Assembly: GCA_902766785.1 (NCBI GenBank)
Contig: CACXEO010000085.1
Location: forward strand, 1-64,000
DNA from: Oscillospiraceae bacterium
GTDB lineage: Bacteria; Bacillota; Clostridia; Oscillospirales; Ruminococcaceae
Length of the DNA stretch: 64,000 bases
Direction of reading: 5' to 3'
The notes under the pieces are model-generated. The model was not told where the DNA came from and did not search any database. It saw only the letters and a list, made by a program, of their open reading frames with translations. Each line of letters begins with the position of its first letter. The stretch's first letter is position 1. The translations under genes and the position numbers were made by a program. Positions 1 through 11,653 of the stretch are shown here, in pieces.

Positions 1-33
1 CCGATCCAGATAGATATCCCGTTTGATCTCCAT
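1..33 (-). CDS. N-terminus of a truncated minus-strand protein, possibly an AAA/DUF4143-type ATPase
   Basis: Only the first 11 codons are in the window; the gene reads leftwards off the edge. It begins with ATG at 33-31 and a strong AGGAGGA ribosome site lies just upstream at about 38-44 on the minus strand. The visible start, MEIKRDIYLDR, resembles the opening of many bacterial AAA-family/DUF4143 ATP-binding proteins, but eleven residues cannot establish this, so the product is only a suggestion. Confidence 0.4.
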   Translation of the reverse strand, partial: MEIKRDIYLDR

Positions 34-285
34 ATTGTCCTCCTGCTTCCGGAATAAATGTGCTTACACCTTTTTTCGTAATTATTATATCCGATACCTC
101 CACAAAAGTCAAGTGTTCCCTGCAAGTTCATAAAAAAGTAACGAGCCAACCAGAAGATTGACTCGTTGCTTTCGTATTCTGTTTGCTTTTCCGTACCGGC
201 TTGCCGACCTGTCACATAGTTGCCCCATGAGACGGAGCAGTTTTCCGCGCGGTTTTTTATTATTGTTGTTCGCTTCAGCGTAAAA

Positions 286-945
286 AACCACCGGCTTTGC
301 CGGTGAGAATCAAAATCTTTAGATAAAAGGAGGAATTGTCATGAATGACATAAACAGTTTAGCACATTCAAAATGGAGATGCCAGTATCACATTGCATTT
401 GCACCGAAATATCGCAGGCAGGAAGTATATGGGAAAATAAAAGCGGATATAGGGCAAATTTTGCGGAAGTTATGTGAGCAAAAAAGTGTGGAAATTATAG
501 AAGCACAAGCGTGTCCGGATCATATCCATATGCTGGTGAGCATTCCGCCTAGTTTGAGTGTAGCGCAATTCATGGGATATCTCAAAGGGAAAAGCAGTCT
601 GATGATTTTCGACCGACACGCCAATTTGAAATACAAATAGGGGAATCGTCACTTCTGGTGCAGAGGATATTACGTAGATACAGTTGGACGGAATAAAAAG
701 GCGATTGCACAACACATCAAAAATCAGTTGGAAGAGGACATTGCGGCAGACCAAATTTCACTCAAAGAATATATTGACCCGTTTACGGGTAGCAAGAATA
801 CAAAGGCATAAAAATAGGCCGCTTTAGCGGCGGCCTGTGATAGTAATGCGGTTGTTAAACCTTTCGATACCCCTTAAGGGGTGTGCCTGTATAATGCCCT
901 TTTAGGGCTTGTGCAAACCACCAGTTCAACTGGTGGTTTTGATTT
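286..945 (+). mobile_element. Decayed IS200-type insertion sequence
   Basis: A single IS200-like transposase gene is flanked by subterminal hairpins, as expected of the IS200/IS605 family, which has no terminal inverted repeats. The left hairpin is 289-305 (CACCGGC, loop ttt, GCCGGTG). The right end has a perfect 10-bp stem at 916-940 (AAACCACCAG/CTGGTGGTTT), preceded by two small palindromes at about 872-907. There is no tnpB. Exact ends cannot be fixed, because this family leaves no target duplication; the limits are the outer hairpins plus a few bases. Confidence 0.75.
341..811 (+). pseudogene. tnpA: IS200/IS605 TnpA transposase, inactivated by an in-frame stop
   Basis: The frame starts at ATG 341 behind AGGAGG and encodes a Y1 (HUH) transposase with the metal-binding His-x-His in CPDHIHML. 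A TAG codon at 638-640 interrupts it after 99 codons. The same frame then continues with the family's conserved GNRHFWCRGYYVDTVG and ISLKEYIDPF segments to TAA at 809-811, so this is a nonsense mutation (probably Tyr to amber) in a gene of about 155 codons. The catalytic tyrosine, normally in a YIxNQ motif, is His here (QHIKNQ). Either change should abolish transposition. Confidence 0.9.
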
Positions 946-1150
946 ATGAGTTGAAATTTTGACCAGGTAAACTATAATTTGTTCAATTATTGAATATAAC
1001 GACAAAATATTACAATTAGTATATTAAATTATCTTTTTAAATGGTTTTAATTCGGAAATAATAATAAAAACAGAATCAAAGGCGATTGAAGATAACAGAC
1101 ATTTCTATAAATATAACGGAATTATATCCTGAAACAGTCCGCATAGAAAA
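945..1150. other. AT-rich intergenic spacer
   Basis: Very AT-rich sequence between the IS200 right end and the rpsT terminator. I see no convincing reading frame, RNA structure or repeat in it. Confidence 0.5.
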
Positions 1151-1181
1151 TAAAAAACGCGTATGTTTACATACGCGTTTA
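1151..1181 (-). terminator. Terminator of rpsT
   Basis: On the minus strand, an 11-bp stem (AAACGCGTATG / CATACGCGTTT, loop TAAA) at 1180-1155 runs into a T-rich tract at 1157-1151, about 55 bp after the rpsT stop codon. Confidence 0.85.
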
Positions 1182-1235
1182 ACTTTTTGTTTCCTACAGT
1201 TCTGAGAGGTGGCGAACTGTAAAAACGAACCGCAA

Positions 1236-1496
1236 TTATGCGTTGGCGCTCAATTTGCGTGCAAGCTGAGCTTTCTTTCTGGATGCGGTGTTTTTATGAA
1301 GCAGACCTTTTGCACAAGCCTGGTCAACCTTTTTGATAGCCAGACGAACAGCGGCTTCTTTATCGGCTGCGTTTGCGGCGACAGCGGCGTCCGCTTTTTT
1401 CAAAACAGTTTTGAGGTTGGACTTCACTGCTTTGTTTCTCATGGTTTTGGTCTGGAGAACTTTCACCCTTTTTTTTGCGGATTTAATGTTCGGCAT
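1236..1496 (-). CDS. rpsT: 30S ribosomal protein S20
   Basis: An 86-residue, Lys/Ala-rich basic protein starting MPNIKSAKKR, the diagnostic S20 opening. S20 binds the 5' domain of 16S rRNA as a primary assembly protein of the small subunit. The full-length frame has a strong AGGAGGTG site eight bases before the ATG and its own terminator, so it is probably monocistronic. It is divergent from gpr, a neighbourhood common in Clostridia, where rpsT often lies beside the germination protease gene. Confidence 0.97.
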   Translation of the reverse strand: MPNIKSAKKRVKVLQTKTMRNKAVKSNLKTVLKKADAAVAANAADKEAAVRLAIKKVDQACAKGLLHKNTASRKKAQLARKLSANA

Positions 1497-1699
1497 CTTT
1501 TTGCACCTCCTTCACATAAGCAAACCGGTTTTGGAACACAATAAGCTTATAACTATGAACCACAGGCCGCCAAGGCTTTCACCTTAAGACACAAGCGGCG
1601 CTGTGACAGCATCAATAATACTACCATAAATTCAAAAAAAAAGCAAGTTTTTTCTTTTAAAAGAGCAAAATTATCATCGAAAAGGCGGGGAAATGAAAA

Positions 1700-2566
1700 A
1701 TGGATTCACAAATCCGTACCGATTTGGCGGTAGAGAGTGTAGAACAGCTTGAAAAAGAGCCCTTAGGGGTCAGGAAACGCCAGTATTCCAAAGAGGGTGT
1801 TACGGTTACAGAAGTTGCTGTCCATGATGAAAAAACGGCGGAAGAGCTGAAAAAGGCGGTCGGTAATTATGTGACGATCGACCTGACACCTTTCCAGTCG
1901 GTCAGCGTCAATTTTGAAGGTGAGCTTTCAGTTGTCGCAGAGGAACTGCAAAAGCTTCTTCCCGCTGAGGGATTGGTTTTGGTAGCAGGGCTTGGAAATG
2001 AACAAATCACCCCTGACGCTGTAGGGCCTAAAACCGCTGCAGGTGTTTTGGCGACCCGTCATGTTACCGATGGGAACAACCATATAGAGGGCCTTTCGGA
2101 GCTGCGTCCGGTTGCAGTGATGGCACCGGGCGTACTGGGGCAGACCGGGATTGAGACGGCTGAGTTTATCCGTTCGGTCTGTGACCGGATCAAACCGTCC
2201 GCAGTGATTGCTGTTGACGCGCTTGCTTCCGGCAGCATCCGCAGGCTGGGCACAACGGTTCAGCTGACCAACACCGGTATTTCTCCGGGATCGGGCGTAC
2301 AGAACAAGAGAAAAGCCCTCAACCAGGATGCGCTCGGCGTTCCGGTTGTCGCACTTGGAATCCCAACAATTGTAGACGCCGCTTCGGTCGTAGTTCGCGC
2401 ACCGGCCGGAGAAAATCCGGAGCCGGAGGAACTTTCGGGCTGTATGGTCACCCCGCGGGAAATCGACGTGATTATAGACAAGGCGTCCTCTATGCTGGCA
2501 CTCGCTATCAATAAGGCGCTACAGCCCAGTTTATCTGTTGAGGACATCCTTGGACTGACAGAATAA
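1700..2566 (+). CDS. gpr: Spore germination protease GPR
   Basis: A 288-residue GPR (peptidase family A25), the protease that degrades small acid-soluble spore proteins during germination. It opens with MDSQIRTDLAVE, matching the conserved IRTDLA region next to the self-processing site, so the propeptide is very short, as in other clostridia. Asp106 (PDAVGP) and Asp173 (VDALAS) align with the two essential aspartates of Bacillus GPR. It is shorter than the Bacillus protein (about 370 residues) but complete by clostridial standards. The ATG at 1700 follows GGCGGGG. In known systems it is made in the forespore under sigma-G; I could not identify a convincing sigma-G promoter here. Confidence 0.96.
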   Translation: MDSQIRTDLAVESVEQLEKEPLGVRKRQYSKEGVTVTEVAVHDEKTAEELKKAVGNYVTIDLTPFQSVSVNFEGELSVVAEELQKLLPAEGLVLVAGLGNEQITPDAVGPKTAAGVLATRHVTDGNNHIEGLSELRPVAVMAPGVLGQTGIETAEFIRSVCDRIKPSAVIAVDALASGSIRRLGTTVQLTNTGISPGSGVQNKRKALNQDALGVPVVALGIPTIVDAASVVVRAPAGENPEPEELSGCMVTPREIDVIIDKASSMLALAINKALQPSLSVEDILGLTE

Positions 2567-2654
2567 AGGTACATTTTAGGCTCAGTTCCGTCATATATAT
2601 GGGAACAGGCGAAAGACGCCAATCCCAGCTGTATAGCGGAACGGAGTGTTGAAA

Positions 2655-3794
2655 ATGAATCGTAACAAAAACAAACGAATCGCAAGAAGGGTGATGGCTG
2701 TGCTGACCCTTATACTGCTGAGCCCTTTTTTATATCAGGGCGTGCTCAACAGCCTGCCCTATATCAATGCGGCCGCCTACCAGCTTGCCGTTTGGTCGGC
2801 GGGCCTGACTTTGCCCGAGGGAGGAAAGGAACTACTGGCGAAAGAGTTTACATCTTCCCAGGATGATAATTCCTCCAGTACGCCAGCGGTTACGGTTCAG
2901 GACTCGGGAAATATTTCTGAAAGCGAACCGGAAAGCGTGTCCTCTGAAACATCTTCCCAGTCTTCAGAACAGACACCGGTCCGTCCGGCGGACGCCGGAG
3001 ATATTATTCGCCGCCAGTATAAAGGCGCGGCCAGTTCAGTCCAGTTCCAGATTTCCAACAACGCTTGGATTAAGAATCTGACTACACATACCCAAGAAGA
3101 GATTATGGCGCAGATTTCGCAGGGGCCCGCCTTTAAAATTGACAAAGGGGACGCACCACAGGTGCTGATTATGCATACCCATACTACAGAGAGCTATGAG
3201 CGCCAGACGCTCGACTGGTTCGACAAGAGCTTTAACTCCCGCACAACCGACAACCAGTATAACGTCTGCCGGGTGGGAGATGAAATTGAAAAGCAGCTCA
3301 AAGCTGCAGGGATTGGCGTTCTGCATGATAGGACACTACACGATTATCCAACCTTTCCCGGTTGTTATGACCGTTCTGCTGGTACGGTTCAAAATTATCT
3401 GAAACAGTACCCCAGTATTAAGGTAGTGCTTGATGTTCACCGTGACGCCATTGAGCAGAAAGACGGGACCCGTATCGCCCCGGTGGCAAATATCAACGGC
3501 AAAAACGCCGCACAGGTAATGATTATTTCAGGCTGTGACGACGGAACAATGGGCTATCCGAATTATTTTCAGAATCTAAAATTTGCTGCCCTTCTTCAAA
3601 GCCAGATGGAGGCGGATTACCCCGGTTTTGCCCGGCCGCTTCTTTTCGATTACCGGAAATACAATCAGCACCTGACCACCGGGTCAATCCTGCTGGAGAT
3701 GGGCGGGCATGCCAACAGCATGGAAGAAGTCATTTACGCCGGGGAACTGATAGGAAAATCTCTTGTAAAGGCGTTAAAGAGCATTCAGTCATAG
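2655..3794 (+). CDS. spoIIP: Stage II sporulation protein P
   Basis: SpoIIP is the amidase/endopeptidase of the SpoIID-SpoIIM-SpoIIP machine that thins septal peptidoglycan and drives engulfment. The protein has an N-terminal membrane segment (about residues 14-30), a Ser/Glu-rich linker (about 65-115) and the C-terminal amidase domain with HTHTTE at 174-179 and DVHRDA further on. I chose ATG 2655 because GGAG at 2643-2646 is spaced eight bases from it; the GTG at 2646 overlaps that ribosome site. It follows gpr by 88 bp, the usual gpr-spoIIP pairing. Expression is expected under sigma-E in the mother cell. Confidence 0.96.
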   Translation: MNRNKNKRIARRVMAVLTLILLSPFLYQGVLNSLPYINAAAYQLAVWSAGLTLPEGGKELLAKEFTSSQDDNSSSTPAVTVQDSGNISESEPESVSSETSSQSSEQTPVRPADAGDIIRRQYKGAASSVQFQISNNAWIKNLTTHTQEEIMAQISQGPAFKIDKGDAPQVLIMHTHTTESYERQTLDWFDKSFNSRTTDNQYNVCRVGDEIEKQLKAAGIGVLHDRTLHDYPTFPGCYDRSAGTVQNYLKQYPSIKVVLDVHRDAIEQKDGTRIAPVANINGKNAAQVMIISGCDDGTMGYPNYFQNLKFAALLQSQMEADYPGFARPLLFDYRKYNQHLTTGSILLEMGGHANSMEEVIYAGELIGKSLVKALKSIQS

Positions 3795-3803
3795 AGGAGT
3801 CTT

Positions 3804-4154
3804 ATGAGAAAAAGGAAGTTTATAAAAGAAGCCTGCCGGAAAGGGCTGGTCTCATTTTGCATTACATGTCTGCTGCTCGTCCTTCTGGCGGGTTCCTCCA
3901 TCGCGCTTTATAATACGGCTTCCGTCCTTTACGGTGAGGATGAGGTCGCAACCGTACAGAAAAGCGGAACTTCATATGAATTTACGCTGTTTTCTGAAAA
4001 GAGAACCGTTTCCGCGGAGAAGGCGGAAAACATGGTGGAACAGATACTTGAATACAGCCCGTGGATGCCGGGTGAAATACGGGCCTTTCTGCTTGCAGCA
4101 GGGGGGATTTGGCAGGGAGCGCAGGAAGCGGCGGATTTTTGGCTCAGCGGGTAA
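3804..4154 (+). CDS. Small membrane-anchored protein of unknown function after spoIIP
   Basis: A 116-residue protein beginning nine bases after the spoIIP stop with its own AGAGGAG site, so almost certainly co-transcribed with it. It has a basic N-terminus, one hydrophobic segment (about residues 16-36, CITCLLLVLLAGSSIALYN) and a C-terminal part rich in Glu, Ala and Trp. I recognise no family. Its place between spoIIP and dpaA suggests a sporulation-linked membrane protein, which is inference from position only. Confidence 0.8.
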   Translation: MRKRKFIKEACRKGLVSFCITCLLLVLLAGSSIALYNTASVLYGEDEVATVQKSGTSYEFTLFSEKRTVSAEKAENMVEQILEYSPWMPGEIRAFLLAAGGIWQGAQEAADFWLSG

Positions 4155-4207
4155 ATTCAAAGCGTTTGACTGACAAATACTATCCTTTTTAAGTTTAAAA
4201 TTAAATG

Positions 4208-4236
4208 AACCGAATAGCAGCTGCCCTCATAGGATA
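4208..4236 (+). promoter_or_regulatory. Predicted sigma-K promoter of dpaA
   Basis: AACC at 4208-4211 and CATAGGATA at 4228-4236, separated by 16 bp, match the mother-cell sigma-K consensus mACm-(16)-CATAnnnTA. In Bacillus subtilis the dipicolinate synthase operon is sigma-K dependent, so motif and gene fit. The -10 also forms half of a perfect inverted repeat, CATAGGAT (4228-4235) / ATCCTATG (4246-4253), whose right arm abuts the GGGGG ribosome site. Confidence 0.65.
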
Positions 4237-4264
4237 TAGAAGAAAATCCTATGGGGGTTGTTCC

Positions 4265-5053
4265 ATGATTATAGATAAAACTTATTTGGTCGCCGGCGGC
4301 GACCTGCGCCAGCTTTATCTGGCCAAAGCATTGGCACGAAAGGGAAACAAAGTATACATCGCCTGTTTTGATGAGGCTTTTGAATTGGATAAGAGGCTTA
4401 TCCCGGTTGATCAGCCGTTTCAAGTTACTGAACGGCTTGATTGTATTGTTCTGCCTCTCCCTGTCACCAACGATGGGATTACCGTTAATACACCGCTTTC
4501 CAAAAAATACCTGGAGCTGGAAACTGTGCTGAAGCAGGCAGACACTTCTACCGTTATTTTTGGCGGAAAGATTGAAAAACCGTTCCAGACGGTTTGCAAT
4601 GACCGCGGCCTGGAGGTCGTCGATTATCTGGAGCGGGAGGAACTGGCCGTCCTCAACGCAATACCCACAGCCGAGGGCGCTTTGGAAATTTTAATGCAGG
4701 AGCTGCCCACCACCCTGTTCGGCACCAAATGCCTGATCACCGGGTTTGGGCGGATTTCAAAGGTTCTGGCAAAATACCTGACGGCTCTTGGCGTAACGGT
4801 TACCATAGCCGCAAGAAAGTATTCCGACCTTGCGTGGGCGAAAGTCTATGGCTGTGAAGGAATACATATCAGCCGGATGGCGGAGGCGGCCGGAAATTTT
4901 GACTACATTGTCAATACAGTTCCGGCAAAGCTTTTTTACCATGGGGTTTTGTCGAAATTAAAAGACCGCTGCCTGGTTCTGGATCTTGCCTCAAAACCCG
5001 GCGGGGCGGGCAGCGGGGATAAAGATAGAACCGGCTGCATATGGTTGTGGTAA
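4265..5053 (+). CDS. dpaA: Dipicolinate synthase subunit A, 5' part (interrupted by the element)
   Basis: DpaA (SpoVFA) with DpaB oxidises dihydrodipicolinate to dipicolinic acid in the mother cell. This part has the N-terminal DpaA domain (about residues 1-115) and the Rossmann domain with GFGRISKVLAK near residue 159, ending at the conserved LDLASKPGG. After Gly247 the frame enters foreign sequence and stops 15 codons later at 5053. The missing 48 residues (VDFELAKQLGIKVIW to the end) lie at 8988-9134. Joined at the GGGG core they give 294 residues, against 297 in B. subtilis. The ATG at 4265 follows a GGGGG site and fits the family start; upstream in-frame starts would precede the promoter. 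Confidence 0.95.
   Translation: MIIDKTYLVAGGDLRQLYLAKALARKGNKVYIACFDEAFELDKRLIPVDQPFQVTERLDCIVLPLPVTNDGITVNTPLSKKYLELETVLKQADTSTVIFGGKIEKPFQTVCNDRGLEVVDYLEREELAVLNAIPTAEGALEILMQELPTTLFGTKCLITGFGRISKVLAKYLTALGVTVTIAARKYSDLAWAKVYGCEGIHISRMAEAAGNFDYIVNTVPAKLFYHGVLSKLKDRCLVLDLASKPGGAGSGDKDRTGCIWLW
4991..5023 (+). promoter_or_regulatory. attL-type junction
   Basis: The left half (4991-5002, TCAAAACCCGGC) is dpaA sequence, then the GGGG core (5003-5006), then element sequence with CAGCGG (5011-5016) and GGATAAA (5017-5023). The dpaA arm TCAAAACCC is the near-complement of GGATTTTGA at 8993-9001 across attR. The element arm CAGCGG is the complement of CCGCTG at 8976-8981. Confidence 0.8.
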
Positions 5054-5078
5054 AGGATAAAAAGGAGTGACGCAGCCA

Positions 5079-5240
5079 ATGCCATCCAAACAGGTTACCA
5101 TTGCGGCGGTTTTTCCCAAAAAAGGTGGCCCGCTTCTGACTGACGCGGTGAAAAAGGCGCTTGGGGCCCGGCGCCGGGAAAAGGGGGGAACAAGCTTTGA
5201 GGGGAACAGCTCTTTACCTGAGACTCTCAAGAGAGGATGA
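5079..5240 (+). CDS. Small 53-codon ORF overlapping the recombinase start
   Basis: ATG 5079 follows AAAGGAG (5061-5067) by 11 bases and encodes a basic peptide opening MPSKQVTIAAVFPKKGG. It ends at TGA 5238-5240, overlapping the recombinase gene by 44 bases in another frame. Its frame carries the better ribosome site, so the recombinase is probably translationally coupled to it. I recognise no family. A leader peptide or a recombination directionality factor are possible roles, with no direct evidence; it may also be non-functional. Confidence 0.45.
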   Translation: MPSKQVTIAAVFPKKGGPLLTDAVKKALGARRREKGGTSFEGNSSLPETLKRG

Positions 5241-6399
5241 GGAACGAAAAAGTGAATCACAGAGCATTGCGAACCAGCGTGCGTTCCTGCTCCGATATGC
5301 GGCTGAAAACGGGCTGGAGATATACGACACCTACATAGACGACGGTTTCACCGGTACAAATTTTGACCGCCCCGGGTTTCAGCGGATGATCGCAGACATC
5401 GAAAGCGGACTGATTGATACAGTTCTGGTCAAGGACCTTTCCCGGCTGGGAAGGGACCACATTGACACCGGGTACTACTATGAGCGGTACTTTCCGGCCC
5501 GGAACGTCCGGTTTATCGCCGTCAACGACGGGATCGACACCGAGCGGGAGACCGCTGGAAATGATATGGGGCTGTTCAAGGCTGCTTTCAACGATCTCTA
5601 TGCAAAGGATATTTCCAAAAAAGTGGTAACCGCCCTGCAGGCAAAAAAGAAAAATGGGGAATTCATCGGGGCGGTTGCCCCATACGGCTACCGAAAGAGT
5701 GCGGAATCTAAAAATAAACTGGAGCCGGAGCCGGAGGAGGCGGAAATTGTCCGCCGTATTTTTGAAAGGCGGCTTCTGGGGGAAGGCTATACGGCAATCG
5801 CACGCTGGCTGGACGGCAGAGGAATACCTCCCCCGTCGGTAAAACGCGGAAGAGACACGGCGCACTGGAGCGATACCGTTGTCAAGAGAATCCTGACAAA
5901 CCCCACCTACTGCGGCGATTTAACCCAGAACTGGAGCCGGAAGGTGAACTATAAGGTGGACCGCCGGCGCGTTCTTCCCGCCGGGGAATGGATCACCGTG
6001 CGGAATACCCATGAACCTTTGGTGAGCCGCGACGTTTTTGAACGGGTGCAGGCTGGAATTGAACGCCGCACGCCGGGGCCGGAACATCCCCTGAGCGGTT
6101 TCTTGTTCTGTGCGGCCTGCGGCAGCCGGATGGCTTTTGTCTCCCGGGGCAGGTACAGCTACGCGGTCTGTGGTGGATGGAAGCGGTCCGGAGGAAAGCG
6201 CTGCCGCTCCCATTGCTGCCGGGAAGACGAGCTGAACAAGTCGGTCTTTTGTTGGCTGGAAAAAGAACTGGATCGGGATGGAGCCGTGCCTATGCAGGCT
6301 GATATTTCAGATGCAGGCCTTTTATTTCAAAGCGTTTTGGAACGGGTAGAGATGGATGAGGGAAAGCGCTTGGCTCTGTATTTGCGGACGGATATTTGA
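5197..6399 (+). CDS. Large serine recombinase of the dpaA element
   Basis: A 400-residue site-specific recombinase. The resolvase domain (about 1-150) carries the nucleophile Ser11 in LYLRLSRED and the VKDLSRLGRD motif (78-87). The recombinase domain starts near APYGYRKS (161-168), and a zinc ribbon is formed by Cys305, 308, 325, 336 and/or 340. The C-terminal coiled-coil part is short, so this is a compact member. I chose TTG 5197, giving MRGTALYLRLS with GGGGGGAA eight bases upstream; TTG 5161 would add a Gly/Arg-rich tail unlike the family. No sigma-A promoter is visible between dpaA and this gene, so read-through from the dpaA promoter is the likely expression route. It should catalyse integration, and with a partner excision, at the GG core. 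Confidence 0.93.
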   Translation: MRGTALYLRLSREDEERKSESQSIANQRAFLLRYAAENGLEIYDTYIDDGFTGTNFDRPGFQRMIADIESGLIDTVLVKDLSRLGRDHIDTGYYYERYFPARNVRFIAVNDGIDTERETAGNDMGLFKAAFNDLYAKDISKKVVTALQAKKKNGEFIGAVAPYGYRKSAESKNKLEPEPEEAEIVRRIFERRLLGEGYTAIARWLDGRGIPPPSVKRGRDTAHWSDTVVKRILTNPTYCGDLTQNWSRKVNYKVDRRRVLPAGEWITVRNTHEPLVSRDVFERVQAGIERRTPGPEHPLSGFLFCAACGSRMAFVSRGRYSYAVCGGWKRSGGKRCRSHCCREDELNKSVFCWLEKELDRDGAVPMQADISDAGLLFQSVLERVEMDEGKRLALYLRTDI

Positions 6400-6424
6400 A
6401 TTTTGGAGCCCGAATGGATATAAT
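6396..6424 (+). promoter_or_regulatory. Sigma-A promoter of the element's cargo genes
   Basis: TTGAAT (6396-6401), a 17-bp spacer and a perfect TATAAT (6419-6424), overlapping the end of the recombinase gene and 34 bp before the patatin ATG. It would give the cargo vegetative expression independent of the dpaA promoter. Confidence 0.7.
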
Positions 6425-6458
6425 AAGGCCAAGAAGAACTGAAAAAGGAGGCGTTAAG

Positions 6459-7772
6459 ATGAAACGTGCGGTTGTACTGTCGGGCGGAGGTTCCCGCGGC
6501 GGCTACGAAGTAGGGGTATGGAGGGCGCTTCGGGAACTGGGATTGGATTTCCAGATCGTCACCGGCACGTCAGTCGGATCCCTTAACGGCCTGATGATGG
6601 TACAGGGAGATTATGAAAAAGCGGTTGAAATGTGGAAAGCCCTGACTCCGGACCAGGTGATGAGTCTTACACTGCCTGAACCGTTTCAGAAAGCTGAAGG
6701 TTTATTTGAATTTCTACGGCAGACAGTTTTCCGGGGTGGGGCCGATGTTTCCCCCTTAGCCAATACCCTTGAACGGGTGATTGATTACGACCGGTTTTAC
6801 GCTTCCCCGGTCGATTTCGGGCTGGTGACGGTCACCTATCCCAGCTTCCGGCCGCTGGTTCTCAAAAAAGAGGAGATTCCCCGCGAGAAGCTCAAGGATT
6901 ACCTGATGGCCTCGGCCGCCTGCTTTCCAGCTTTCCAGCCCCATGTCATCGATGAGAAACAGTACGTGGACGGCGGCTTTTTTGACAATCTTCCAATCAA
7001 TCTCGCCATTGAAATGGGAGCGGAAGAAATTATTGCGGTGGAGTTGCAGGACATCAACCTGGTTCGCCCGGTGCGGAACAAAGGGATAAAAATAATACGC
7101 ATCGGGCGGAAAAAGCGGAGTACGCTGGGACCGCTGCTGGTTTTTGACCCGTCGCAGACAATGAAGAATATGAATTGGGGTTACCAGGACTGTATGAAGG
7201 CTTTCGGCAGGCTGGAAGGCGATATCTATTCATTTTCAAAAGGCTTTCTGAAGGGTGAATGCAAAAGGCTGGGACGGGAATTTTCAGAACTATTTCACTG
7301 CATGGTCAAAACCTACTCCTACAGCCTTGACCATGTTATCGCAATGGCTCACCTCAAACGGGCGCTGGGAGGGTATCTCAGCCAGGAAGGCGTTCCCAGC
7401 CTGGAGCGGGCCCTTTTACGTTCAGCAGAATGCGCCGCCGGAATATTGGGGCTTGACGACACAGCAGTTTATACGGCGTGCAGGTTCCACTCAGCGATTA
7501 GGGAAAAGCTTGAAACCGCCGATTCCCTTCCACCCGGCGTGCGGGAAATCATTTTGGACGGCGGGCTTTCCCCCAAAGAAAAGCTTGACCGCCTTGGCAG
7601 ACTGAGCGGCCCTGATTTACTATATTTTGCCTGCCAGAGGCTCCGCCAGCTTTGTGATGGAACGTTTCCGGTTCAAAAAATGAACCGCATTTCCGCTGCC
7701 TTTCCTCAGTTTGTGTTGGGTGCGGTTTACTGTGAGGCCCTCCGGCGGGCATCAAAGAAAATGGACGGATAA
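6459..7772 (+). CDS. Patatin-like phospholipase (element cargo)
   Basis: A 437-residue protein whose first 200 residues form a patatin domain: the oxyanion-hole glycine loop GGGSRGG (9-15), nucleophile elbow GTSVG with Ser38, and Asp171 in the DGG motif completing the Ser-Asp dyad. Such enzymes cleave fatty acids from phospholipids or neutral lipids. All catalytic residues are intact. The C-terminal 230 residues are poorly recognisable and probably helical. No signal peptide is seen, so it is cytoplasmic. ATG 6459 follows AAAGGAGG; the longer frame upstream overlaps the promoter and was rejected. With DegV next door, a lipid-release and fatty-acid-binding pair is plausible but unproven. Confidence 0.93.
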   Translation: MKRAVVLSGGGSRGGYEVGVWRALRELGLDFQIVTGTSVGSLNGLMMVQGDYEKAVEMWKALTPDQVMSLTLPEPFQKAEGLFEFLRQTVFRGGADVSPLANTLERVIDYDRFYASPVDFGLVTVTYPSFRPLVLKKEEIPREKLKDYLMASAACFPAFQPHVIDEKQYVDGGFFDNLPINLAIEMGAEEIIAVELQDINLVRPVRNKGIKIIRIGRKKRSTLGPLLVFDPSQTMKNMNWGYQDCMKAFGRLEGDIYSFSKGFLKGECKRLGREFSELFHCMVKTYSYSLDHVIAMAHLKRALGGYLSQEGVPSLERALLRSAECAAGILGLDDTAVYTACRFHSAIREKLETADSLPPGVREIILDGGLSPKEKLDRLGRLSGPDLLYFACQRLRQLCDGTFPVQKMNRISAAFPQFVLGAVYCEALRRASKKMDG

Positions 7773-7859
7773 AATTATTATAAATGTGGGCAAAAGAACT
7801 GTTCAAAACAAATAATTCGTGTTACAATATTACAAAATTTAAAGTATTGGAGTACAATT

Positions 7860-8726
7860 ATGGATTATGTAATCACCACCGATACAACCTGCGATATGCC
7901 GCAAAGTTTTTTGAGTGAAAATAACATTGGCGTTTTGACAATGTCTTATATCGTTGACAACGTCACTTATGCCGGAAAAGGGGAGAATCAGCTTTCACCG
8001 GAGGATTTTTACCAAAAGCTGCGGAGCGGTTCTATGCCGCAGACCGCCCAGGTCAATCCGGATCAGGCGGAAAGCCTGTTTGAAAGCTATCTCAAACAGG
8101 GAATCAACGTTCTGCATATCGCCTTTTCCTCCGCGCTCAGCGGCAGTTATCAAAGCACCGTCATCGCGGCGGAAGATTTGAATGGGAAGTACGGAGACGC
8201 CAGGGTGGTTGTCATTGATTCCAAATGTGCTTCTATGGGAGAGGGCCTTTTCCTTTATTATGCGGTTCGGCTTAAAAATGAAGGGAAGAGTTTTGATGAG
8301 GCGGCTGAGTGGCTGGAAAGCCATAAACTCAATGTTTGCCACAACTTTACGGTTGACGACCTGTTTCATCTCCACCGGGGCGGACGGGTTTCCAAAACTG
8401 CTGCCGTTTTCGGCTCAATGCTCGGGGTTAAACCCGTTCTGCATGTGGATGATGAGGGCAGGCTGATTCCGGTACAGAAAATCCGCGGGAGAAAGCAATC
8501 GCTTATAGCTCTGGTAGACAACATGGAAAAGTGTATGGGCGGGATGAAGAACGACATCGTCTTTATCAGCCACGGCGATTGTCTTGAGGACGCCGAGTTT
8601 GTTGCAACTGAGGTAAAGAAACGCTTTGGGATCAAAAATATCCGGATCGGCTTTATAGGTCCGGTCATCGGCACCCATTCCGGCGCAGGCACGGTCGCCC
8701 TTTTCTTCATGGGAGAGCACCGGTAG
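7860..8726 (+). CDS. DegV family fatty-acid-binding protein (element cargo)
   Basis: A 288-residue DegV/FakB-type protein. The N-terminal motif TTDTTCDMP, the SSALSGSYQS loop (90-99) and HRGGRVSK are family signatures for binding a fatty-acid carboxylate and presenting the acyl chain, in FakA/FakB systems for phosphorylation. No FakA kinase is encoded in the element, so a host kinase would be needed if it acts this way. It begins 87 bp after the patatin gene, with a possible -10 TACAAT at 7823-7828, and is closed by a strong terminator. Its presence in the element rather than in a core operon is unusual. Confidence 0.93.
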   Translation: MDYVITTDTTCDMPQSFLSENNIGVLTMSYIVDNVTYAGKGENQLSPEDFYQKLRSGSMPQTAQVNPDQAESLFESYLKQGINVLHIAFSSALSGSYQSTVIAAEDLNGKYGDARVVVIDSKCASMGEGLFLYYAVRLKNEGKSFDEAAEWLESHKLNVCHNFTVDDLFHLHRGGRVSKTAAVFGSMLGVKPVLHVDDEGRLIPVQKIRGRKQSLIALVDNMEKCMGGMKNDIVFISHGDCLEDAEFVATEVKKRFGIKNIRIGFIGPVIGTHSGAGTVALFFMGEHR

Positions 8727-8747
8727 TTTTATAAATTGTCTCAATAA

Positions 8748-8785
8748 CAACCCCGCCCGGCTTCCGCCGGGCGGGGTTGTTTGTT
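8748..8785 (+). terminator. Terminator closing the element's genes
   Basis: A 13-bp GC-rich stem (CAACCCCGCCCGG 8748-8760 / CCGGGCGGGGTTG 8767-8779) followed by a T-rich tract. It would stop cargo transcripts before the dpaA 3' part and dpaB, leaving dpaB without an upstream promoter until excision. Confidence 0.85.
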
Positions 8786-8987
8786 GTTCTGATTTGAACT
8801 GCGTAATTCCTTGTTGCATTATCGGGTTGCCTGCCGCCCCAAAACAGAAAAAATAATGTCGATTGAGCGACTGTTTAAAATGCAACGGAAAGGAAAAAAC
8901 GATCTGTCCGGGTGGGTAAAAAGAGAAATAACACTGAAAAAGAACAGGTTGAATGTTTCAAAACGTTTATCCCTTCCGCTGTCACGG
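8786..8987. other. Right-end non-coding segment of the element
   Basis: About 200 bp with no supported gene. An ATG at 8855 lacks a ribosome site and runs in frame into the dpaA 3' part. In an excised circle that frame would cross the joined ends and stop at the TAA after 5050. I treat this as chance reading of non-coding sequence. Confidence 0.5.
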
Positions 8988-9001
8988 GGGGTGGATTTTG
9001 A
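8966..9001 (+). promoter_or_regulatory. attR-type junction
   Basis: Element arm TTTATCC (8966-8972) and CCGCTG (8976-8981), core GGGG (8988-8991), then dpaA arm GGATTTTGA (8993-9001). With the left end, CCGCTG/CAGCGG forms a dyad centred between 8988 and 8989. The dpaA arms TCAAAACCC/GGATTTTGA form a dyad (8 of 9 pairs) centred on the same dinucleotide. Confidence 0.8.
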
Positions 9002-9134
9002 ACTGGCAAAACAATTAGGGATCAAGGTGATCTGGGCCCTCTCCCTTCCGGGAAAGGTGGCACCGGTCACCTCGGGTGAGATCATCTGCGATACCATACA
9101 GAATATTTTGGCGGAGAGAGGTGGAAGCAGATGA
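8988..9134 (+). CDS. dpaA: Dipicolinate synthase subunit A, 3' part
   Basis: Forty-eight codons and a stop that complete DpaA: GVDFELAKQLGIKVIWALSL and the conserved PGKVAPVTSGEI segment that closes the Rossmann domain. It has no start or ribosome site of its own and would only be translated correctly when joined to codons 1-246 at 4265-5002. Its end overlaps the dpaB start (ATGA at 9131-9134), so the two subunits are translationally coupled once the gene is restored. Confidence 0.94.
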   Translation, partial: GVDFELAKQLGIKVIWALSLPGKVAPVTSGEIICDTIQNILAERGGSR

Positions 9135-9700
9135 GTAAGAAACGGATTGGATTAGCCCTCTGCGGGTCATTCTGCACCTTCCGCGAGGTAATTGACCAGT
9201 TGGCAGAGCTGGCGAGAAATTATGACGTCACGCCGATTATGTCTTACAACGCGGCAAATTTAGACACCCGATTCGGTCGGGCGCTGGATTTTATTGAGGA
9301 GCTGGAACGGGTCTGCGGCCGTCCTGTTATGAAGACGATACAGGAAGCCGAACCAATCGGCCCGAAAAATATGTTCGACCTGCTGGTGGTTGCCCCCTGT
9401 ACGGGGAACACCCTGGCAAAGCTCGCTTTGTCAATAACCGATACCCCGGTTACAATGGCGGTGAAATCCCATCTCCGGGGGACAAAGCCGGTATTGCTGG
9501 CAATTTCTACAAATGACGCGCTGAGTGGGAGCGCCAAGAATTTCGGCGCGCTTCTCAACACAAAGCATTATTATTTTGTTCCAATGCGGCAGGATAATCC
9601 CGACAAAAAGCCCAATTCCCTGGTGGCACGGTTTGACCTGCTGGGGGATGCAATAGAAGCGGCTATGAAAGGGCTGCAACTGGAACCGCTTTTTCAATAA
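9131..9700 (+). CDS. dpaB: Dipicolinate synthase subunit B
   Basis: A 189-residue SpoVFB flavoprotein-fold subunit of dipicolinate synthase. LALCGSFCTFREV at the N-terminus and VVAPCTGNTLAKLA in the middle are family signatures. Ca-dipicolinate accumulates in the spore core and gives dehydration and heat resistance. The gene is intact and overlaps the dpaA stop by four bases. While the element is integrated it sits downstream of the element's terminator with no promoter I can see, so expression probably depends on excision. A terminator follows at once. Confidence 0.96.
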   Translation: MSKKRIGLALCGSFCTFREVIDQLAELARNYDVTPIMSYNAANLDTRFGRALDFIEELERVCGRPVMKTIQEAEPIGPKNMFDLLVVAPCTGNTLAKLALSITDTPVTMAVKSHLRGTKPVLLAISTNDALSGSAKNFGALLNTKHYYFVPMRQDNPDKKPNSLVARFDLLGDAIEAAMKGLQLEPLFQ

Positions 9701-9735
9701 CCCCCAAAAATCTGCTCTGAATTTTTGGGGTTTGC
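9700..9735 (+). terminator. Terminator of the dpaA-dpaB operon
   Basis: Stem CCCCAAAAAT (9702-9711) / ATTTTTGGGG (9721-9730) followed by TTT, beginning at the dpaB stop codon. Confidence 0.8.
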
Positions 9736-9750
9736 AATAACTTTTTTACG

Positions 9751-9786
9751 AAGAACGGTGCGTTCCGAAAGGAGCGCACCGTTCTT
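9751..9786. terminator. Stable GAAA-capped hairpin, possible terminator for the convergent glycosidase gene
   Basis: A 16-bp stem with one G-T wobble, AAGAACGGTGCGTTCC / GGAGCGCACCGTTCTT, capped by GAAA. It lies between dpaB and the minus-strand glycosidase. Neither strand has a clean U-tract straight after it, so termination is likely but not certain. Confidence 0.5.
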
Positions 9787-9886
9787 ACCTATTTCATTTG
9801 TTGCAAACGTTGTTTAATCGCTGGCTTTCTGGAAGTAGCTGAAAAAATGAATTGCAGATTCAGCATTATATATGGTTTTTGCATTT

Positions 9887-11653
9887 TTAAAGTAATGGGG
9901 GCTCTGTTAAAGATGGATTTCCGGTTTCCGGTCGGCCTTTCAGATATTCGTGCGCTAGAATCAGAAAAACGCTTGCCGTCCAAGTATAGGCGCGGTCTCG
10001 CAACCCTTCTCCGGTTAGTGCGTCAAAGTTTTCGGCAAATCCATTCTGAGCGACCATTTCCACAAAACGAGATGCGGCTTCAACTGCAAGCCCTTTTTCT
10101 CCGGAACGGTATAGGCCATCAATAATGAGCATGCTGGAAGGTGCCCAGATTGGCCCCCTCCAATATCCATCTGACTGGTAAAAAGGGCTTTGAGGCGATT
10201 CAGTCGCAAAGCCATGGCTGGTATAAAACCGTTTGCTCTTAAGTGTGTTGAGCAAACCGGAGAGAATGTTTGCAGGCAGAAGCTTTCCAAGAATGACAGG
10301 AAGATAGAGAATTAAGCTGTCATTTGGAACTTCCTGATGGGTATATGCTTGGCGTGCAGAGGGAACACCGCTTTTAAAGCAAAGGGAACACATTGTATCC
10401 AGCATAGTATTGGCCTTTTTCTCCCACTCTTCTGCCTGAGAAAATTTTTTCAGATTTCGGGCAAGACTACTCAGTTCTTTCATCTGCAAAATGAGAAAAG
10501 CGGCCAGATCGGGAATCTCCACGGCGGGACTATTGATAAAAGCGGTGGAATTATCCCACCCGGAGTCGTTTCCGTGAAAATATTCGCATAGACCGTCCTG
10601 GTCATGATCCCGGTAGTCAAGCCACCAGTTAGTCCAGAGGGAGAGCTTTAGATAAGCCTCTTCTAACTGCTCGATGGAAAGTTTCATATTCTGCATGATT
10701 TTTGAAAGCGCCCATCCATGTATCGGAGGTTTTACAAAAGTGTAGGACGCGCAGGCATTGTTGACACAGTCTGGAATTACCCCCGCTTTGTCCTGAAAAT
10801 CAAACATTAACATGAACTGTTCCCAGGCAAGACCTGGATCATGATAGGACAGAGCAATTGCATTGAAGCAGTGATCCCAGCTCCAGATATTGCACATCCA
10901 GTTTTTAGACATCAATATTGCTTCCCGTCCAAGTATTCCCGTCGGTTCTACAATACTTTCCCAGAGTACATAGGCCGCCAGTTCTTTTGCTTTCAAATAC
11001 GGTTCGGGAACTGAGGGCATTTTTCTCAGAAATTTTTCAAAATCCTGCCTGGCTTGATCTCTGCAGGAAACGTAATCGTATTGTGTAAGATCTTTTTTTC
11101 TTCCGGCTGTCAATTCCTGAAAGGCGGCTGAAAAACAACCGCCAGTCGGCGAAAATTCAATGGAAGAGTATTCTGCGCCCGTCCCGTCCCAGTTTTGTAA
11201 CATTGACATTTTTCCCAAAAGCAGACCGGCCCTGAAGCGAAGACCCAGCTGTCCGCAAACACCTTCAATTTCAGAGTGGCCCGGCCCGGATTCATAAATA
11301 TATGCCCTGTTTTCAAAGCTCAGCCGGAGTGACAGCTTTTCTCCTTCTCCCCGCATTAAAATAGTGCTATTATCGGCAAAACAGATTAAGACGTTCCCAA
11401 ATTCGGTCTTCAGTTGAAGCTCACAGGGCGACGCCTGAGCAGAATAGGGGATAGGATTTCCGCAGTATAAAGGGATAAACCGAAAAATAGTTGTCTTACC
11501 AGCATCTCTCGTTTTGCCCGGAATAAAAGAAAATCCATCTACTGTTCTGAGGCAAAGCTTTTGCGTATCTTTTTTGATAGAATCGGTAAGTTCAGAGACT
11601 GCAAAATAGGATCCCCGCTTGCTGAAGGGAACTTGAGATAAATCAAAGTACAT
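9887..11653 (-). CDS. Alpha/alpha-barrel glycoside hydrolase (GH63/GH37-like)
   Basis: A 588-residue cytoplasmic protein. The C-terminal two thirds resemble the MGH1-like/GH63 catalytic domain: WSWDHCFNAIA, DHDQDGLCEYFHGNDSGWDN, SDGYWRGPIWAPS and a late ENFDALTGEGLRDRAYTWTAS. The N-terminal 200 residues look like a beta-sandwich. Substrate specificity (glucosidase, mannosylglycerate hydrolase or trehalase-like) cannot be called. I chose ATG 11653 because the codons just upstream contain the GGAGGA site. It is divergent from another glycosidase and may share its control. The pair sits between dpaB and gltX and looks like an accessory sugar-use island. Confidence 0.85.
   Translation of the reverse strand: MYFDLSQVPFSKRGSYFAVSELTDSIKKDTQKLCLRTVDGFSFIPGKTRDAGKTTIFRFIPLYCGNPIPYSAQASPCELQLKTEFGNVLICFADNSTILMRGEGEKLSLRLSFENRAYIYESGPGHSEIEGVCGQLGLRFRAGLLLGKMSMLQNWDGTGAEYSSIEFSPTGGCFSAAFQELTAGRKKDLTQYDYVSCRDQARQDFEKFLRKMPSVPEPYLKAKELAAYVLWESIVEPTGILGREAILMSKNWMCNIWSWDHCFNAIALSYHDPGLAWEQFMLMFDFQDKAGVIPDCVNNACASYTFVKPPIHGWALSKIMQNMKLSIEQLEEAYLKLSLWTNWWLDYRDHDQDGLCEYFHGNDSGWDNSTAFINSPAVEIPDLAAFLILQMKELSSLARNLKKFSQAEEWEKKANTMLDTMCSLCFKSGVPSARQAYTHQEVPNDSLILYLPVILGKLLPANILSGLLNTLKSKRFYTSHGFATESPQSPFYQSDGYWRGPIWAPSSMLIIDGLYRSGEKGLAVEAASRFVEMVAQNGFAENFDALTGEGLRDRAYTWTASVFLILAHEYLKGRPETGNPSLTEPPLL

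Follow-up and report, generated by a model that had tools for sequence, protein, structure and literature searches.

A serine-recombinase element splitting dpaA in an Oscillospiraceae genome: a predicted developmental switch at a recurrently interrupted codon

Spore formers require dpaA to make dipicolinic acid, a chemical that protects the spore from heat, and expression of spoVF in the mother cell is well established. Developmental excision during sporulation has been described for a few elements of Bacillus, Geobacillus and clostridia, and many of these are prophage remnants. In the accessible portions of the literature, the published sporulation gene-intervening elements are skin, vfbin, vrin, SPbeta, gin and yin. 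According to the available part of one report, excision of gin from gerE of Bacillus cereus ATCC10987 was shown in sporulation, and in another Bacillus gerE holds a prophage, which may make this gene a repeated target as well (PMC5595907). Here we analysed a stretch of 64,000 nucleotides from an Oscillospiraceae genome (the window; contig CACXEO010000085.1 of GCA_902766785.1), in which dpaA is split by 3,985 bp of foreign DNA. We consider it likely that this stretch is a serine-recombinase element that would be precisely excised in the mother cell during sporulation, restoring the gene.

The break falls at 5005/5006, after codon 247 and within the conserved SKPGG motif, inside the coding sequence of a spoVF gene of sporulation (NF006162/TIGR02853). 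The frame then runs through 15 foreign codons of the element to a stop ending at 5053, and the gene resumes at 8991. The 5' piece matched the NCBIfam model NF006162 over positions 4-249 of 297, TIGR02853 as far as 246, and DpaA_N. It also aligned with the PDB entries 3d4o to residue 249 and 2rir to residue 251 (the 5'-part queries, 4262-5005 and 4262-5053, were one codon longer upstream than the ATG). The missing end lies in order and in frame at 8991-9134 (NF006162 positions 248-291), ahead of an intact dpaB whose start it overlaps (9134 versus 9131). The joined gene has 247 + 47 = 294 codons. The original prediction had described foreign codons at the end of the 5' part, the displaced 3' end and a joined gene of 294 codons against about 297 for the family; all of this was borne out, the model length being 297. 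It had also given the element a length of 3,985 bp that is not a multiple of three, and division by three indeed leaves a remainder of one. When aligned in register, the element ends have GGGG in common (5003-5006 and 8988-8991). An exchange anywhere inside this core gives an identical product, in which SKPGGVDF is restored. Both dpaA parts are conserved and in frame, and the recombinase follows the 5' part in the same orientation. The window genome (G000; 2.27 Mb, 105 contigs) contains a full-length sigK just above the family cut-off and a second match of 252 bits to the sigK model. The window also holds gpr and spoIIP, together with a spoIIE match that is full length but scores below its cut-off.

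Cut and intact forms of dpaA were found among relatives. Of the best 120 of 354 DpaA relatives, 118 have the motif. Ninety-five of these run on, 16 carry foreign tails at the codon cut in the window (site B), six break off at a further position (site C), and P0220, which ends early, was left out. The tailed set is known from proteins alone, and one of the 16, P0165, is that of genome G079. Eight of the nearest proteins (P0121-P0125, P0132, P0134 and P0135) have a common GDK tail, which matches the translation of the GGGGATAAA arm in the window genome. An assembly accident is unlikely, since the cluster P0121, represented by a cut protein of 94% identity whose tail is of a similar type, counts 24 sequences on 37 contigs; moreover, G695 is a single-contig genome with two inserts in dpaA. 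Cut P0134 and intact P0136 are identical at 247 of 247 residues before the site, with the frame of P0136 unbroken, and therefore both states occur naturally. The interrupted and intact alleles that the original prediction proposed to look for in relatives are represented by this pair. On a quick DpaA tree of 143 rows (21 cut, 122 intact), parsimony counted at least 12 changes between cut and intact. This count is approximate, with weak branches and seven of the 12 site-B genomes left out (5' part broken or on another stretch).

The detached 3' parts were well preserved. Between the window genome and the intact relative P0126, the 3' part is identical at 45 of 47 residues and the 5' part at 215 of 247. 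A 3'-part profile was built from 26 intact loci and referred to 95 intact database tails of at least 43 residues, which scored 90.7 on average and 77.5 at the lowest. The 3' parts of 11 of the 12 cut site-B genes described below scored 79.9-99.0. Decay in relatives, the sign of a dead gene named in the original prediction, was therefore mostly absent, with 11 of 12 pieces exceeding the lowest intact protein and only G673 below it. Of 66 pairs, 22 had dS below 1.6, and in these the dN/dS ratio of the 3' part was 0.07-0.35. Flavonifractor and G226, which have look-alike elements, differ there by five synonymous codons and one other, a small number.

The same codon is interrupted in other genomes. 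The first searches covered 149 relatives, queried with the dpaA 5' part and with the recombinase. Later searches covered 197 and 200 genomes of two families, queried with the intact DpaA of G084, and 29 genomes with partial, multiple or divergent DpaA matches were picked for inspection. Among the matches listed, at least 12 genomes are cut at site B with both ends in hand: G000, G079, G226, G438, G488, G601, G603, G637, G673, G695 and two GTDB records, L076 (Anaerotruncus sp. S30_Bin7) and L078 (uncultured Flavonifractor BRZ_II__bin16). Nine genus codes are represented among the G genomes of this set. The second glycine codon of SKPGG, ahead of VDF, is the broken one in all 12, and its first two bases (GG) are common to both ends; the full GGGG is common in ten, G488 and G695 being the exceptions. 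The elements measure 3,383 to 17,346 bp in eleven genomes and about 44 kb in G695. Other genomes' inserts were viewed as open reading frame (ORF) lists with spot searches, and the 44 kb of G695 at its ends alone. The cargo was unrelated between genomes, with genes for sugar catabolism, thiazole synthesis and polysaccharides. The 15,867-bp element of G079, with a related recombinase directly behind the cut dpaA, carries GntR regulator, sugar-type ABC transporter, dehydrogenase, transketolase and class II aldolase genes. ThiF, ThiH and TenI/ThiE-type genes were found in L078, and the polysaccharide genes Wzz, CpsB/CapC and Polysacc_synt_2 in G603.

Of 29 control loci (L007-L035), 27 extended past the motif to the 3' part (L027 ends at a contig end). 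The exceptions were L010, which is the cut gene of G079, and L023, which gave no motif. Two genomes with dpaA pieces 9-15 bp apart and no insert (G687, G519) were set aside as frameshift-type splits. In G065 and G649 the pieces lie at contig edges; G065 was uncounted, and G649 was used in the recombinase tree and promoter rows only. An order-wide family search was uninformative for split genes, as all 14 control genomes also matched. No dpaA piece was found on viral contigs in any of 80 loci.

Two further positions in dpaA were also occupied. Site A, between NAVPTA and EGA near residue 135, is interrupted in seven genomes with both pieces on a single contig (G142, G578, G259, G249, G438, G673 and G695), and with pieces on different contigs in G010, G590, G603 and G637; in L078, only its right end lies within the locus. 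Site C, within SLPGK (WALSLPGK), is cut in G028 (L241), and the six database proteins that break off there do so about 20 residues beyond site B. Five of the site-C proteins (P0150, P0158, P0181, P0192 and P0197) share the tail NERVDL or one near it. At least four genomes (G438, G673, G695 and L078, the last at 1-7600) are cut at both A and B by two different elements, and in G695 three dpaA pieces spread over about 78 kb. G488 has an additional break at about residue 176-196. Seven site-A recombinase ORFs scored 71-119 bits against the window recombinase and the site-B ones 267-922 bits, which suggests a separate recombinase family for each site. We lean slightly towards a broader interpretation, in which dpaA would be the docking hub of a mobile system of germline/soma style among the gut-type spore formers of this order. 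Interchangeable metabolic cargo would dock at three sites, sometimes two at once, be carried in growing cells and spores, and be removed entirely in the mother cell; in the compact form, the recombinase would be timed by the sporulation promoter of the host gene itself.

The contents of the window element are listed in Table 1. The recombinase has the Resolvase N-domain, Recombinase and zinc-ribbon domains of large serine recombinases, in keeping with the original claim that the element brings its own enzyme. Many relatives are longer (about 480-530 aa, against 400 aa here). Its start is most likely TTG 5197 rather than 5161 as first proposed; the 92% relative P0001 starts at the matching codon. 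The cargo, a patatin and a fatty-acid-binding-type protein, suggests lipid turnover, with the DegV protein falling below the cut-off of the FakB1 model. Searches of the four ORFs with PHROGs and Pfam revealed no phage structural or conjugation genes. In PHROGs, the recombinase gave integrase/invertase-type matches, DegV matched a family of unknown function, and the patatin and small ORF gave none. A prophage identity was rejected, as phage structural, packaging and lysis genes were absent from the PHROGs results. An Rfam scan of 3500-10000 gave no matches. Elsewhere in the window, the ORF at 341-640 resembles an IS200-type transposase fragment.

Table 1. Features of the split dpaA locus and its element, in window coordinates.
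Feature	Position	Strand	Details
Sigma-K-like promoter of dpaA	4209..4236	+	AC, 17 nt, CATAGGATA
dpaA 5' part	4265..5005	+	247 codons, ATG 4265; NF006162, TIGR02853, DpaA_N
Left junction (attL)	4985..5030	+	core GGGG 5003-5006; arm GGGGATAAAG 5015-5024; codon shared with 11 other genomes
Element	5006..8990	+	3,985 bp, mod 3 = 1; serine recombinase, patatin-type lipase, DegV protein
Small ORF	5079..5240	+	53 aa, GTG 5067 alternative start; Shine-Dalgarno; overlaps recombinase start
Serine recombinase	5197..6399	+	400 aa, TTG start; Resolvase, Recombinase, Zn_ribbon_recom
Vegetative (sigma-70 type) promoter-like site	6396..6424	+	ahead of cargo; TTGAAT-17-TATAAT, 10 of 12
Cargo: patatin-like phospholipase	6459..7772	+	PF01734, E 6.4e-32
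Cargo: DegV family protein (fatty-acid-binding, FakB-like)	7860..8726	+	PF02645, E 1.7e-77; TIGR00762
Terminator-like hairpin	8746..8781	+	16-bp stem, closes cargo
Right junction (attR)	8960..9010	+	arm TTTATCCC 8966-8973; core GGGG 8988-8991
dpaA 3' part	8991..9134	+	47 codons plus stop; NF006162 positions 248-291 of 297
dpaB, intact	9131..9700	+	TIGR02852 and NF006161 above cut-offs

Twelve dpaA-element recombinases were placed in a quick tree, those of 11 site-B genomes (none from G488) and of G649, against a background of 76 rows (58 of 80 loci and 18 loci of a second search). Together with eight database relatives and five of the 76 background rows, they formed one 25-row set with an SH-aLRT value of 98, inside which long branches were joined (G079 with G649). 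One of the five background recombinases, in G026 (L039/L254), lies directly behind a spoVD match covering 10-382 of 636 model positions. The clade thus appears to use a second sporulation gene; the remainder of spoVD was not noticed among the ORFs listed for the fetched stretch. For the other four (G136, G121, G055 and G013), no interrupted sporulation gene was noticed in the ORF lists of the fetched stretches.

The symmetry of the element arms exceeded that of shuffled sequences in 8 of the 12 (no more than 4 of 400 shuffles did as well, by one or both of two measures), but not in G000, G079, G438 and G601. The common GGGATAAA of the G000 arms is 7 nt out of register, beyond the range of the symmetry test, and by eye the arms of G000 and G079 have TTATCCC/GGGATAA in common. 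In 9 of the 12 recombinase loci, a small ORF immediately precedes the recombinase or overlaps its start; a tenth, G438, shows this weakly. Its profile, built from seven elements with the consensus V...F...GPxLEEL, also matched ahead of the G226, L078 and G026 recombinases, and weakly in G438 and several background recombinases. ORFs of 30-57 aa with a motif like ENGxTLxELL precede serine recombinases at window 5079-5240 and at L110, L115, L120, L094 and L099. Pfam gave weak DUF6870 matches in 2 of 11 family members. The family is possibly a general recombinase partner, and we would guess that the window member is a directionality factor or such a partner.

A dpaA promoter could time the recombinase. 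The pattern AC-N15-18-CATANNNTA, which we take to reflect the sigma-K consensus, occurs once on the plus strand of the 64-kb window (4209-4236) and twice on the minus strand. Upstream of dpaA it was found in 11 of 42 rows (G079 twice), against 0.55 expected from shuffles, and its -10 part in 17 of 42 against 2.8. No terminator-like site was found on the plus strand from 4686 to 5738, which makes read-through into the recombinase plausible. Under the proposed mechanism, sigma-K-type transcription from ahead of dpaA would pass through the 5' part and the small ORF into the recombinase. This enzyme, aided by the small protein as a putative directionality factor, would cut the element out as a circle, after which the same promoter would yield DpaA and DpaB. 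The forespore genome would retain the element, and the patatin/DegV cargo would thereby be inherited and used in growth from its own vegetative-type promoter-like site. Sites of this kind are weak evidence alone, with 12 in 4000-9800 against 4.9 expected. The skin-like switch of the original prediction was supported by the conserved 3' parts, the intact allele P0136 and the full-length sigK.

Several observations weigh against developmental excision. No excision, element circle or transcript has been seen, and the developmental schedule is a prediction. The strict sigma-K-like pattern precedes 1 of 13 cut dpaA genes (G000) versus 10 of 28 others, and is missing in 8 of the 9 site-B cut genes with upstream DNA (G649 counted). 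Self-timing by the dpaA promoter fits 6 of the 12, or 6 of 11 without G649 (G000, G079, G601, G637, G673 and G695), where the recombinase starts 161-452 nt inside the left end on the dpaA strand. Elsewhere it is at the right end, with its start there on the opposite strand in G438 and G603, and with its 3' end there in L076, L078 and G226, all three on the dpaA strand, and in G649. No recognisable serine recombinase was found in the 5,650-bp insert of G488 (L240), which is perhaps stranded or served in trans, and the recombinase frame of L076 is altered near its end. The symmetry of the G000 arms is weak, with 137 of 400 shuffles doing as well. Ahead of the L076 and G649 recombinases no such small ORF was found, and it is no mark of developmental excision because background recombinases are also preceded by it. 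The 3' part of G673 (L242) scored 51.1 and looks damaged, with the IWALSL motif altered and the frame and flanks kept, possibly through decay after loss of excision. The purifying selection on the 3' part may partly predate insertion.

An alternative is a plain integrative element, for which dpaA would merely be a conserved, growth-dispensable attachment site. Such elements would turn over from strain to strain without a developmental schedule, and the spores of cut strains would be poor and free of dipicolinate. Besides the damage in G673 and the missing sigma-K-like pattern, this explanation draws on the presence/absence differences between close relatives, the variable cargo and the four of five related background recombinases for which the ORF lists gave no interrupted sporulation gene. 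However, it does not readily account for the conservation, in 11 of 12 cut genes, of 3' parts that have no start of their own, or for the at least four genomes that retain the pieces of a dpaA cut at two sites; the window element also lacks phage structural and conjugation genes (PHROGs, Pfam). We regard it as unlikely, though the most serious competitor.

Permanent inactivation of dpaA, with dipicolinate made by another route or not at all, is very improbable. The gene as it stands does encode DpaA minus its last 47 residues, and the G673 copy does look damaged, but the 3' parts are in frame and conserved, dpaB is intact, an empty allele exists in P0136, and sigK, gpr, spoIIP and spoIIE are present. 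That the two pieces are made as separate polypeptides assembling into one enzyme is hardly credible: an ORF at 8811-9134, in frame with the 3' part, does begin upstream of the junction, but the residues preceding the 3' part vary between elements.

Precise mother-cell excision thus remains our preferred explanation for the dpaA element. Neither an interrupted dpaA nor such Oscillospiraceae elements were described among the best-ranked literature matches, which scarcely covered subscription journals and preprints; the original prediction had likewise named no described case in dpaA. That prediction was right about the interruption of dpaA, while the repeated use of the site and the further docking sites were absent from it. 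As far as searched, the use of dpaA as a recurrent multi-site dock, together with swapped metabolic cargo, is new. The gene is struck repeatedly, at fixed codons, by elements with ordinary metabolic cargo. If excision follows a developmental schedule, sporulation genes would act as protected sites where horizontally acquired functions can land, retained because sporulation is required. Split genes may also account for automatic annotation scoring some spore formers as lacking dpaA. The elements form a natural set of recombinases and their matching sites on which directionality control can be studied.

The kind of element is already known from skin, vfbin and gin, and interruption of the partner gene spoVFB has been described. 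In the accessible parts of the reports on vfbin, the interrupted gene of B. weihenstephanensis encodes the other dipicolinate synthase subunit; it differs in being dpaB/spoVFB of a Bacillus and in its phage-related genes (PMC4191935, PMC10747680, PMC6957869). SPbeta, in the portion available, likewise restores a B. subtilis sporulation gene, spsM, by precise excision, but is a full prophage (PMC4191935). The skin elements in sigK of B. subtilis and C. difficile (CD1231/CD1234), as far as the available text describes them, have a serine recombinase, a small directionality factor and restriction to the mother cell (PMC5025042). They differ in being prophage-like and lying in a sigma factor gene (PMC5025042), whereas sigK of the window genome is full length. 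Similarly, gin is a non-phage element with a serine recombinase and a short core inside a mother-cell sporulation gene, and needs an extra factor, GirX (PMC5595907, in the part accessible). Any resemblance of the small ORF here to CD1234 or GirX goes no further than its size and its neighbour, the recombinase. Unlike the dpaA element, gin lies in gerE and has three recombinase genes, and the same part of that report describes no metabolic cargo series at one codon (PMC5595907). Taken together, at the level of its sequence, the dpaA element shares with the skin, vfbin and gin kind a position inside a mother-cell sporulation gene, a serine recombinase of its own, and a short core at which removal leaves the reading frame intact.

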